In this document: positions 3,083 through 59,935 of the stretch, in pieces
Layout of the letters: each line of letters opens with the position of its first letter
How positions within the stretch are numbered: position 1 is the first letter of the stretch
Assembly: GCF_905475395.1 (NCBI RefSeq)
Contig: NC_058338.1
Location: forward strand, 96,829,435 to 96,893,434
Reading direction: 5' to 3'
Origin: Chrysoperla carnea
Taxonomy: Eukaryota; Arthropoda; Insecta; Neuroptera; Chrysopidae
DNA length: 64,000 bases
Notes under the pieces: generated by a model
What the model was told of the DNA's origin: nothing
Databases searched by the model: none
Seen by the model: the letters and a program-made list of their open reading frames with translations, nothing else
Program-made: the position numbers and the translations under genes

Positions 3083-6000
3083 ATGAATGAATATTTTGAT
3101 TGTGTAAATATATGTCGAGCGTGTTTGATTAATATTGAAAATATAGAAAGAGTATCATTATTTGATGAAAAAATATTACTAAATGATTGTCAATTACATG
3201 AATCATTAGAAGCATGTACTTCTGTTCACGTAAGTTCAAATGACAGGACAGACGTAAATATTTACATTATCCTGTAATACTCAAATTATTTAAATAATAA
3301 CTGCTTTGTAGTAGTGATAACTTAAGATAGTCATAAATCGCATCAAATTTTATTTATAATGTTAAATATTCGAACTAAAAATAGCGCTAGCGGTTTGAGC
3401 ACCACCGCAGAAACTCTCAAAAAACTCATTTAAAACTCGATGGAGTTTTAGCACGATTCCTATGAGCTATGACCATTTCTAAGGGTTACCGTCTCACCGA
3501 GAACAACAACAATACTCCGGATGAACACCAGCAAAACTGCATAAAAAGACGAGCAAAATTTCACGGAAAGTCATACAAAACGCAGTAAGATTCTTGTGTT
3601 GGAAGCGTACAAAAAAAACTTAACATTTCCAAGGCTGAAACTCCGCCCAAACTCCACATATATATACTCCATGAAAAATCAAAGAAAGAGCACAATCCGC
3701 AGTAACTCCAAGTTTCGACCGAATCATCAAACCCGCTAGAGAGTAAATTCATTAGTTTTTGTGCTAAATAAAAAATAGGCACGGACAACTTTCTTTTTAT
3801 TATAACTTCGTTAATTTTCGTGCAAATGACTTAAAACTTTTTTCATTTTCAAAATTTTAAAAAGTTGACGAGTACTTTAAAAAGTTTTCAAAAAACGTCA
3901 TATTTTGCAGTCATTTAACGTTAAATAGGTACTCCGAATTTCAATCGCTAATATTCGGAAAGTAATGACTTTTCGAAATATGCTTGAATGACACTTTTTG
4001 CTTAGAATATATCCCTCTTTCGATTACCGTTGTTTTTTTCAACATATATTTTTCTGCTTCCTAGAAAGGGTGGTTACCATCCCCTGGACGAAAGCACTAC
4101 TCGCCGTCATAACTTTTGTTTCTTTTTCAAGTCAATCGGAGCTATAGGAAACAATTTACAGGTTTAATTCTCGTTTACTGGAGTAATAGTGTAATTTGAG
4201 AACAATTGACTATTTCAACTGATAGGTTCTTGGCAAGAAGTGCACTTTCTATTATTTGAAAACAATAACAAGTGTTTGATATATCCCTGTATGTTTCGAA
4301 CTTTTCCTTAAAAAAATAAAATTGTCAAAAAGCAAATTAATTTTTTTTTAGATTAATTATTCAGATAAAACATCAATTTATTTATGTAATAGATGTTTTA
4401 AATTATTAGAAACAAGTTATAAATTTCGAGTACAATGTTTATTATCCGAAGAAAAATTTAAAAAATCATTACGCTTGCATAACATTGAATCGAATTTTAA
4501 TGAAAAATATATTAAACAAGAAATTTGTAAAACTGAATTAATAGAACAGAATAATGATTCAAATTTCATTTCAATAAAAAATGAATACCTTGTACCTGAT
4601 GTAAAAATTGAAGATAACTTCTTAAACGATTATTCCACAAAGAATAATGATTCCGAAGTTTATAACAATCAATCAGATGATGATTGTATTGAAAATATCG
4701 ATCATGATAGCTTGAAAGATGAAGCAAACGAAGATTATTTAGAAAATACAGATTGTAAAAGTTTGAAAAATGAAGACATCACTAAAAATGTTAATGAAAA
4801 AACTGTGTACAAATGTACAGATTGTAATAAAGTTTATAAAAAAGCATGGATGCTTGAAAATCATAAATTAGATCATGGTCATAATTGTAAAGTGTGCTTT
4901 AAAAGCTTTAATACAGAGAATGATTTAAATAAACATGCGCAAGAACATGCGCATTTAGAACCGAATAGATTTGTTTGTAAAGAATGTGATAATGATTTTT
5001 CTTCAAAATTTTCACTAAATTTACATATACGGGTAAAATCGATAAAAATTATTGTTTTTCATCATATCAAATGTTTATAGTCCAATATTTATTTCAAAAT
5101 TTCTAATTTTTTCATGTAGAGTCATCACAAAGGAGGAAAACCACACTTATGTTCTGTTTGTGGTAGAGGGTTTGCGATTGAGAGATATTTAACTGAGCAT
5201 ATGCGGATTCACAATGGAGAAAAACCTTATCAATGTAATGTTTGCAGTAAGTACATATAGGTATAATTTATTCATAGCAAGTGAAAACAAACAATTGACT
5301 GAGTTAACTGTTAAAATACTATGTATAGTCAGTGTTGATTACGCAATATTTTTTTTACGTCATATAAATAAAAAAAGATAATCAATCTTAGAAAGCCACA
5401 TGCGTTTATATGACGAAGCCAACTAGCTTAATTAGCCGTTCATTTAACAGCGTAGCCTTTTTAATAAACGGCGTCATTCAACTAGCAGCTTGAACGGCAT
5501 CCAGGCATTCAATCAAACAGCAAGACATAAGACTTGGATCGATAACGTTTAATTACTTGCCTAGCCTAATCATTTTTAGTACAACTTTCTGCTACCTAGT
5601 GCTGAAACCCATAATACACTGTAAATTGAAAGATACTCAAGTCAGTCTCCTTTTGGTGGCCAGGAATTTCAAAAATATAGTTGTAGGCCTGCTGTGAATC
5701 AGTGTCGCAATAATAGATGTGCTTGTTTTAAAAACAAAGTTTTTTGCGGATCCAAATGCCATGGAAACTTAACTTGCGTATAATATTTTAATTACTTATA
5801 TGTGTACTTTGTTTTTAGGCTACGCTTTTTGATCTCCTTTTGATCTCCTTGGCCTAGGCGTTAAGGACCCCTTTGCAGTACACCTCTTTTGTATTATTAT
5901 TGTTATTATTATTATATCATGTAAATATGAAATATAACAAGTATACTAAGTTTAGTCCCAAGTTTTTAACACTTAAAAATATTGATGCTACGAAATCACC

Positions 6001-9000
6001 TAATAAGTCTATTTGCGGTTGTCTGTCTGTCTGCACGTCTGTGTGTCTGTCCGTCTGTCAAAACGATAATGTGGTATGATCGCAGCTACCCAACCTGCCT
6101 TGCTATGTGAATGCTATACAGCACTGTCGTGTTGTTTTCTTTGTTTTATGCAAAAGAACGTCTTATGTCATATATTATAAATGGCTAACGAAATGATATC
6201 CAAACTGTATGTATGTGTTTCTTTATAACATATGATATGTTTACTGAGGAAGTGAGAAGAAAGAAATTACCAAAAAAAATGATTACCTCATAAACACTGT
6301 CTATACATGGTATTTCAACAATTAACTCAGTCAATTGTTTGTTTTCAGTGTTTTCACTTGTTATTACTACATTTCGTTTCAGATGCTAAATTTCGTCAAT
6401 CTTCGACATTAAAAAGTCATTTAACAACTCATACAACTGACAAGAATTATATTTGTACTGTTTGTGGTAAAAAATTAGCTTATAAAGCTACATTACGAAT
6501 ACATATGCTGAGTCATACTGGTGTTAAAAAATATCCTTGTACAGTATGTGATAAAAGTTTCAAAGTTTCAGGTCTGCTAAGCAGACATATGATTATACAT
6601 ACAGGTAATTGAATTGGTCTGGTCACTAAACCCAAATATAAACATCCTTAAATGAGCTGGTCGAACAAATGAATGTAAACTTGATTTAGATAGGTACCGG
6701 GACAGAGATTTAGATACCAGGGAATTGTGAAGCCAAAGCAGCTTGCTAGAAATAATACAAATATCAATCCAAGAGTCTGGGAGTTCTGTTTATGGAAAGT
6801 AAGCTGCTTCTAAACAAGGGTATCTTAAAAAAGGCCAATCTTAAATGAAGGGAGTAACACACTTGTGGTACAAGGCAGATATGGTCTGAGTACAATCGTA
6901 GGCGTTCCGAAGACTTTTTAACAAGATCCTTTGACGACTATCGTTTCAAAGGATCTCTATTAGCAAAATCGTTATTACAAGACAATATCTAGGTGGCAGG
7001 CACGCTGAACGACTGTGCCTACCAGTGCATCACGATTATTTCAGGAGCTGTTTCAGTGGGGAGGAGGACGAAACTATGCCTCATCTTCTCTGTTACTGTC
7101 CATCTCCTCATCACTGTTCAGCTCCTGCCATGAGGAGATCATGAGACTGCCATGAGGAAATCACTTACTTGAGTCAGCCTTTCTATGACGACCTCTACGG
7201 TCCGAAGGTCGTTAACGTCAAAGCACTTCTGCTGTTCTTAAACAGTTCCGAATGGCTCATGGATTAGTGGTCCGGCTTGAACCAACCCTGTTTTGGTATC
7301 ACAACGATCCTATGTTCTAAGCATGTTCTATCCCAGTACAGCCACTCGAACCCAACCTAAACTCAAATATAAAAATCAAAGTTATTTGATGCTAGATTGT
7401 TTGTGAGATACACCCTTTTTATCGATGATTTTATGCGATACTTAACAAACCGAAATGTTTCCCTAATATAAGAATAATGATTACACAAAGTGGCTAGTGA
7501 CCTGAGCTACCATGGATATGTCACAGAATTTTGCGATCTTGGAAATGTTGGTGAATACTAAGTCACGATTAGAAAAAATGATAAAAGAAAATGATTTCCC
7601 GAGCTTTTGAGATCAATATCTCGGAATGTATTCATCATTAATTTTAACCATAAAATAAAGGGTGTTCCAATAAGAACACCGGTTTTGAATTGCGTTTGTA
7701 GTGTCATGATTTGTTCGTTAGTCAACAGCTGCAGGTTAAGTAAAATGGAGCACAACACTACACAACGAAGAATTTTGATTGTAAAAAATTATTATTAAAG
7801 TGGTGAAAGTTTTGCAGCCACAGTTCGGAAAATGCGTACAGTTATGTGCCATTGAAATGCTCCAAATGAAGTCACTGTGAGAAAATTAATGAAAAACATT
7901 GACCAAACAAGGCCTGCTAATGACGTAAAACAGAAACAGGCATTCGTCTTGGTCGTTCGATTGAAAATATAGCAGCAGTGCGTGCAAATGTTGGGGAAAG
8001 CCCAACCACATCAATAAGACATTCAGCTCAAGAAATTAATGTTTCCTTAACCATTATGCATTGAATCTTAACAAAACATTTGAAACTTCATGGGTAAAAA
8101 GTTCAATTGACACAAGACCTGAAGCCGGAAGATCATGGGCATCGAAGAGCGTTTGCTGATTGAATTTTAGAATAACCAATAGCCAATTGGATGGATTTTT
8201 CAACGAAAATCATATTTATTGATTAGGTTCATTTTTGTCTTGTAGGCTCCGTTAATAGACAAAATTATAGACATCATCGGACCATTTTTCTTCGAAAAGA
8301 CAGTTGGAAAAGCATTCACCATGAATGGTGTTTGTTATCGTGAAATGTTAACTAACTTTTTTATGCCAAAATTTCAAAATATAGATCTCAACAGCATGTG
8401 GTTTCAACAGGACAATGCAACATGTCATACAGCCAGAGAATCTGTTGAATTAGTGCATGAGTCGCATGCCTGGTCGAGTTACTTCTCGTTTTTGAGATCG
8501 GTATTGGTCGCCCAAATCTTTTGATTTAAGCCTTTGTGAACAACCCACAATGATTGAAGCCTTAAAAGATGAAATTGAACGCTGTGTGACTGAAATACTG
8601 CAAAATTTATGCACAACGGCCCTTGAAAATTTCATGAAAAGGGCACGTCTGCGCCAACAAAGCCGGTCATTTGTTCAATTTCTTATTCCATTCAAAATTT
8701 CATGATGTGCACTTCATTATTCAATAAATGTTTCAACCTTATGGTATAAATATATATGTTTTATTTCAAACTCAAAAAGGCGTCCTTATTGGAACACCCT
8801 TTACGTAGTTTAGTGATTCGATTTGCCTCAGTAAATGATTTTTATCAGAACTTGAGATAAATCGAGTATGTTTGTATTTTCTGCATAAATCACTCAGAAA
8901 TTGTCGATAAATGGGGATGCCAGTACCATAATAGAAATAGCAACAATCGTATAAAAAATATCATTATTTTGATTTTAAGGTGAAAAAAACTACAAATGTC

Positions 9001-59745: not shown

Positions 59746-59747
59746 TA

Positions 59748-59935
59748 AACAAGTGAAAACAAACAATTGACTGAGTTAATTGTTGAAATACCATGTATGG
59801 CCAGTGTTGATGACCCAATTGTTTGTTTTTTTACGTCATGTAATTAAAGAAAGATATCATCCACTCTTAGATAGCCACACCTAATTTGTACCTAATTGGC
59901 GCCCTTGCGGGTAAAAAGTGATGTTTACGAAAAAA
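59748..59935 (-). repeat. Helentron-like (HINE) 3' fragment
   Basis: The tail, stem-loop and subterminal repeat are intact at 59748-59800. Homology is lost after GATGTTTACGAAAAAA near 59935. Confidence 0.7.

Follow-up and report, generated by a model that had tools for sequence, protein, structure and literature searches.

A repeated element of about 560 nt in a 64,000-nt stretch of the Chrysoperla carnea genome (contig NC_058338.1, positions 96,829,435 to 96,893,434; hereafter the window) is, with a probability of roughly 0.88, a non-autonomous Helentron family, that is, a Helentron-associated interspersed element (HINE) of the DINE-1 type, with a probable readthrough branch. It represents a large, recently active family of protein-less rolling-circle transposons. 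The near-identical copies share one anatomy and end in T runs, the empty sites compared for two insertions are without duplication beyond the Ts, and Helentron-type genes occur in the genome. A preliminary description of the window had proposed HINE/DINE-1 membership, and every testable published feature (PMC2374699, PMC4067079, as far as the relevant sections set them out) was present; five of the six features we tested were found, and the sixth is the partner element considered below. The family itself is ordinary, and its satellite-carrying branch is the notable part.

An element profile built from the five full window copies (sites 11801, 33234, 36988, 46549 and 47774) was run against the whole window and matched 16 stretches, with a best E value of 2.1e-189. 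Twelve sites had previously been listed as copies of one repeat. Ten of them bear element ends, but sites 22775 and 29866 were hit in mid-profile only and share a core of about 150 bp alone (repeat family B, see below), so that 10 of the 12 sites count as the element. Six window copies diverge by 6-17% from their own majority. The copies are as follows.

36986..37546, forward strand: full copy, query of the genome search (profile match; 39 other near-full matches at 95-97% identity)
11803..12391, reverse strand: full copy (profile match, alignment)
33236..33791, reverse strand: full copy (profile match, alignment)
46551..47111, reverse strand: full copy, more diverged, with its paralogous empty site at 48995-49214 (profile match)
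47772..48357, forward strand: full copy (profile match, alignment)
20569..20996, reverse strand: copy without the 3' end, listed earlier as 20574 (profile match, alignment)
31860..32512, reverse strand: copy with family-B core and interior in place of its own (profile match, alignment, core tree)
5913..6360, forward strand: copy keeping head and tail only, with unrelated interior and a short internal duplication in the tail (profile match)
5278..5402, reverse strand: 3'-end fragment, listed earlier as 5277 (profile match)
59750..59960, reverse strand: 3'-end fragment, listed earlier as 59748 (profile match)

In native orientation, the aligned full copies run in the order T run, ATACCATGTATA, TATGAAATATACATAGTATA (which contains the second 5' inverted repeat), 5' block, (GTCY)n, core, variable stretch, ATACATGGTATTTCAACAATTAACTCAGTCAATTGTTTGTTTTCA[C/T]TTG and T run. 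The parts of copy 36986..37546 illustrate this layout.

36988..37000, forward strand: 5' subterminal repeat TATACCATGTATA, near-palindromic (motif count)
37008..37020, forward strand: part of the full copy just beyond its 5' subterminal repeat (motif count, folding)
37127..37142, forward strand: (GTCY)n microsatellite
37268..37415, forward strand: core common to the element and repeat family B (sequence comparison)
37497..37509, forward strand: 3' subterminal repeat TATACATGGTATT (motif count)
37514..37532, forward strand: 19-nt stem-loop (motif count, folding, pairing across copies)
37533..37546, forward strand: fixed tail, ending CATTTG in this copy

The rule given for HINE/DINE-1 subterminal repeats, in the parts of PMC4067079 and PMC2374699 devoted to structure, places them at about 2-4 nt from the 5' terminus and at 38-60 bp from the 3' terminus; here the 3' subterminal repeat lies 38 nt from the CACTTG end. 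The 3' repeat had been described as complementary to the 5' one, and this was borne out: ATACCATGTATA and the complement are identical over 12 bp in the consensus, where the HINE rule asks for at least 11. With up to two mismatches, TATACCATGTATA was matched 24 times, far above the 3.47 in shuffles. The 19-mer CAATTAACTCAGTCAATTG with up to three mismatches gave 13 matches (some sites on both strands) against 0.09 expected in shuffles. The 3' palindrome stands 14 nt from the end, within the roughly 8-35 bp typical of HINEs, and consists of a 7-bp stem plus two inner pairs across one mismatch, with standard pairs in 93.8% of the stem cells in nine window copies. All 36 pairs of nine window copies are 84-98% identical over the terminal 57 nt or so (compared over 51-57 nt). 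The combination of a GTCY microsatellite and a second 5' inverted repeat, which marks the DINE-1 type, is also present. The microsatellite had been ascribed to each full copy; runs of at least two units were found in six of the eight window copies that retain the 5' block, but not in 31860 and 46549. An Rfam search of the window returned no match reaching gathering scores.

The genome comprises 559,487,470 bases in 337 contigs, six of which (39 to 140 Mb) hold most of the sequence. The search with copy 36988 gave 1810 first-look candidates, of which 40 were scored, and its counts are a lower bound. It returned 41 entries, namely the query itself, 39 near-full matches (95-97% identity) and one short piece; all 39 near-full matches were taken with 200-bp flanks, and 38 of them span the profile. 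The 33 copies with both ends found by motif (six were without) differ from their majority by 0.9-2.3% (mean, 1.55%), with a mean pairwise identity of 97.1%. Many near-identical copies are therefore dispersed in the genome; because the 39 are the best matches to one copy, they demonstrate a young subfamily and not the age of the whole family.

The earlier suggestion to check for TT insertion sites was taken up. Among the 39 genome copies, 36 5' ends and 36 3' ends were located by motif (three unlocated per side). TT stands directly before ATACC at 35 of the located 5' ends and directly after the tail at 35 of the located 3' ends; the 5' T run has two Ts in 15 copies, five in 18, three in two and one in one. 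In the window, all seven 5' ends that have the ATACC motif are preceded by TT (31860 has no such motif at its 5' end), and seven of nine 3' ends have TT after the tail, three further motif matches that are not element ends having been dropped from these counts. Empty sites were sought by comparing the joined flanks of the 39 copies, and likewise of five window copies, with the window and the fetched loci. One of the 39, copy L022, has uninterrupted relatives at two places, L054 (76.7%) and L009 (75.2%), and one of the five window copies has the following counterpart.

48995..49214, forward strand: paralogous site without the insertion of 46551-47111 (72.7% over 242 positions across the joint)

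Target-site duplications had been named beforehand as the outcome that would speak against a HINE, and none beyond the Ts was seen at the paralogous empty sites of these two insertions. Counted by eye, L022, with two Ts, exceeds L054 by one T (in L009 the run is interrupted), and the five-T copy has about three Ts more than its empty site, as if three Ts were its own. This agrees with the HINE habit of inserting in T-rich sequence without target-site modification, single Ts being ambiguous at 73-77% identity. A cut-and-paste miniature inverted-repeat transposable element (MITE) that has subterminal inverted repeats and duplicates TT at its target site, as DINE-1 and the lepidopteran GTCY elements were earlier interpreted, would account for the inverted repeats, for the Ts on both sides of nearly all located copies and for the empty-site T counts, which are compatible with a TT duplication. 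We nevertheless consider it quite improbable, because the 3' repeat is 38 nt internal and the ends are asymmetric, because the extended branch has a fixed 5' end and a variable 3' end, and because the same layout is tied to Helentrons in print (PMC4067079, in its treatment of HINEs). Terminal inverted repeats with a fixed target-site duplication, as in terminal-inverted-repeat transposons and MITEs, were not found, although a TT duplication is possible.

Five of the 39 genome copies (L017, L023, L024, L032 and L050) share DNA to the right of the tail, but not to the left of the head. Seven loci of this branch were read, namely longer pieces of the five (L052 to L056) and the joint loci L089 and L090 obtained later. 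All seven consist of a complete element, a spacer and then 306- to 307-bp repeats in 2.1 to 6.0 copies; 70 nt of the spacer are common to all seven loci and about 124 nt to six, giving 70-125 nt overall. With a 181-nt query across the joint, 1053 first-look candidates were obtained, and all 40 scored matches, on contigs C1 to C5, cover it; six of the seven loci read fall among these 40. In the pairs of branch loci compared, the left flanks are unlike and mutual similarity begins at the 5' end of the element. The far end varies: the array match stops at differing points in L054, L056 and L089, while in L052 and L055 the array is followed by a second, diverged element that is without its first 10 nt or so and ends CACTTG, the right flanks of these two loci differing by eye. 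The L090 piece is too short to show its far end.

A constant 5' start, different flanks and a 3' end that varies from locus to locus are compatible with rolling-circle copying past the normal stop, and missed termination is the best explanation of the extended branch; L052 and L055 fit a composite that stopped at the 3' end of a neighbouring element. In Helitrons, sequence can be captured through missed termination or through composite transposition, and the same is expected for Helentrons (Thomas et al., PMC4067079, in the part that deals with capture). At the old 3' end, CATTTG replaces CACTTG in all five extended copies of the sample, and a point change in the tail may thus have weakened the stop. 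Among 26 unextended copies whose tail could be read (8 were unreadable), 2 also have CATTTG, as does window copy 36988, and the CATTTG of the extended copies reflects one shared origin, not independent evidence. It is also conceivable, though less likely, that the satellite-linked copies arose without readthrough, one copy having landed beside an array and ectopic recombination, breakage or segmental duplication having then spread the joint with trimmed arrays. Such a history would suit the array of L053, which runs into an inverted element piece, the tendency of arrays to shrink and grow on their own, and the distribution of the joint matches, which, as far as the 40 scored show, occur on C1 to C5 but not on C6 and may be clustered. 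However, the seven loci are alike from the element's own 5' end and have unlike left flanks, a boundary that recombination would not respect. That the branch is a one-ended vehicle, with a fixed 5' end, copying past the stem-loop into the satellite, variable stops and seeding of 306-bp arrays genome-wide, is a tentative proposal to which we give slightly less than even odds. A literature search for readthrough linked to satellites found nothing. Within the window, 45973-46062 is about 72% similar to part of the satellite DNA beside the extended copies.

Under the Helentron interpretation, a Rep/helicase/endonuclease encoded elsewhere in the genome would recognise the element ends, copying would start at the 5' subterminal repeat, and one strand would be displaced through rolling-circle replication. 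Copying would normally end past the 3' stem-loop at CACTTG, and the strand would be inserted into a T run without target-site duplication. In one branch, the stop would be bypassed and the spacer of 70-125 nt plus the 306-bp array carried with the fixed 5' end to many places.

For Helitron_like_N (PF14214), 71 candidates in the genome yielded 64 matches; 14 control genomes yielded no match. Locus L079 holds a 2158-aa frame that combines DUF6570, Helitron_like_N and PIF1 with an endonuclease match at the C terminus (PF14529, E 0.0018, 18.6 bits versus a cut-off of 27.4) in which a GDFN motif is present; this domain set is the Helentron make-up, with the endonuclease match below cut-off. On contig C7, L078 has a 2462-aa frame with OTU protease, DUF6570, Helitron_like_N and PIF1 and no GDFN motif, and the frame of L077 agrees with it in length and start. 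There are also Rep frames of about 1460 aa, in 3.5-kb pieces that stop short of the frame ends, and they are the point in favor of a non-autonomous canonical Helitron. Canonical Helitrons begin with TC, end in CTRR and target AT. These features were not found; our element has the ends ATACC and CACTTG, a T-run target and subterminal inverted repeats, and this reading is very improbable indeed. As to the distribution of the Rep genes, 35 of the 64 matches lie on C6 (38.6 Mb), the smallest of the six large contigs and perhaps a sex or dot chromosome. Seven matches on C3 (L080, C3:3764000-3773900) are spaced 5813-5815 bp apart with one larger step, and two of these units show 99.98% identity across 4088 nt; a Rep/helicase element is thus arrayed head to tail here.

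Several results weigh against the Helentron assignment. Two of the nine window 3' ends (5278 and 31860) have no following TT, and since the empty sites are only 73-77% alike, single Ts are unassignable and a TT duplication is possible. The preliminary description had looked to a Rep/helicase-endonuclease partner with the same ends; Helentron-type genes do exist in the genome, but no element ends surround a Rep gene among 32 Rep loci (20 of 3.5 kb and 12 of 9.9 kb), 20 of which are too short to reveal ends, making this weak evidence either way. In L079, an element piece (profile 35-347) is found some 1.1 kb upstream of the Rep frame and on its strand; the piece has no 5' end and, by eye, sits between direct repeats of about 24 nt. 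The 19-base stem-loop is conserved in sequence as described, but in all six copies folded it is no more stable than shuffles (z -0.44 to 0.68), and no covariation beyond shuffles was seen in the 5' hairpin or the 3' stem-loop. The 5' hairpin, formed by the subterminal repeat and its neighbour, folds better than shuffles in four of five copies (z -2.95 to -3.91, two of the four being identical in sequence; the fifth, z -0.39). The stems of DINE-1 are likewise 7-11 nt, and the folding and covariation results neither help nor refute the rolling-circle reading.

The element is so common that neighbours of Rep genes such as those in L079 and L082, the latter a complete copy on the strand opposite to the Rep frame, are expected, and the piece beside the L079 frame may be there by chance. 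L079 was considered as the autonomous partner and left unproven. A second candidate reaches into the window.

44062..44657, forward strand: decayed 3' terminus of a Helentron-like element whose ends are of another type (596 nt at 98% to L087)
44132..44431, forward strand: endonuclease-like open frame with GDFN motif and no Pfam match (within 44062..44657)

At 95% identity the frame matches L087:8472-8771, a segment situated downstream of same-strand Rep and PIF1 frames, and this genome comparison places it in a Helentron-like element. It is putatively endonuclease-like from its place and its GDFN and SYHKP motifs, which we take as endonuclease signs. The frame matched no Pfam, solved-structure or viral-contig protein, its AlphaFold model was uninformative (mean predicted local distance difference test score, pLDDT, 47.7), and the matching frame in L087 had no Pfam match either. 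The shared 596 nt end at the hairpin CACTCCCAGAGTG and then CAACCCG, unlike the HINE family ends, and this element was rejected as the partner because of its different 3' end.

Among known systems, Drosophila DINE-1, as portrayed in the structural account of PMC2374699, resembles our element in its 13-bp subterminal repeats (ATACCCGTTACTC in D. melanogaster), which also start with ATACC, in the second inverted repeat by the 5' one, the GTCY in the 5' block, the 3' stem-loop, the T/T insertion and the absence of coding capacity. It differs in that its repeat sequence is not ATACCATGTATA, which is also nearly palindromic, and the likeness is judged on repeats and layout. HINE-Mo and HINE-Cq, described with their Helentrons in PMC4067079, share the palindromic subterminal repeats, the 3' palindrome, the lack of target-site modification and end Ts that vary in number among copies (2-5 in Culex); a partner with the same ends is known there, but not for our element. 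The mite HINE families, as that paper's description presents them, are without the second inverted repeat and the core. Helitron2_Cv and Helitron3_Cv of Calliphora vicina, compared by description only, have a DINE-1-type layout with GTCY, and Helitron2_Cv makes up 3% of the region studied (PMC3630058, from its repeat account). The oyster Cg_HINE, in the portion of PMC7492417 on its modules, also bears satellite arrays, but these are central between end modules, whereas ours lie beyond an apparently complete 3' end. Palindromic repeats like those of the mite and mosquito HINEs thus occur in our element together with two DINE-1 traits, the second inverted repeat and GTCY. The lepidopteran GTCY MITEs of Coates from 2011, named MINE-2, reportedly also have a GTCY microsatellite in a DINE-like element. 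Sequence strings of the element sought in the literature gave one irrelevant match. No match was found in viral contigs with two exact patterns and an insect-repeat pattern, or in prokaryote genomes with two patterns; four viral-contig matches to a short degenerate pattern were judged chance after about 210 nt of each were inspected.

The core (37268-37415) is also found in family B, with weaker core-only matches at 26957-27061 and 19171-19255.

22813..22947, reverse strand: core only, family B rather than the element, listed earlier as 22775 (profile, sequence comparison, tree)
29876..30035, reverse strand: core only, family B rather than the element, listed earlier as 29866 (profile, sequence comparison, tree)

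Two copies had been said to carry swapped cores. The description fits 31860: its core forms a group with those of 22775 and 29866 at 86/94, below the tool's threshold for a strong fork. It fits 5913 more loosely, the interior there being unrelated. The B-type sequence of copy 31860 extends past the core, and the B-type core and interior indicate that interiors were exchanged. Three B stretches were compared with the block that follows GTCY. The one on the right side of the core in copy 31860 reached a score of 38, where the highest of 200 shuffles was 31, and the other two did not exceed all 200. Species-specific central regions have been published for DINE-1 (PMC2374699, in its comparison of species).

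Elsewhere in the window, repeated C2H2 zinc-finger genes lie in tandem at 1333-6620 and 15287-20422, with zf-AD matches below the Pfam cut-off. The copies at 5278 and 5913-6360 sit in the apparent single intron of such a gene region, and 5913-6360 stops some 20 nt short of what looks like a splice acceptor near 6381; the tandem genes failed as an empty-site pair for 5277/5913, their introns being too different. A separate GTCT-bearing repeat with 175-bp tandem units occupies 34540-35058, where the element profile gives no match.

A HINE such as DINE-1 can be the commonest repeat of an insect genome, and how HINEs stop copying and spread satellites has so far been inferred largely from layout. 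With a young family, a chromosome-level genome and many copies sharing one exact readthrough joint, the stop signal can be studied by counting copy ends, and the extended branch offers a concrete route from a transposon to dispersed satellite arrays.

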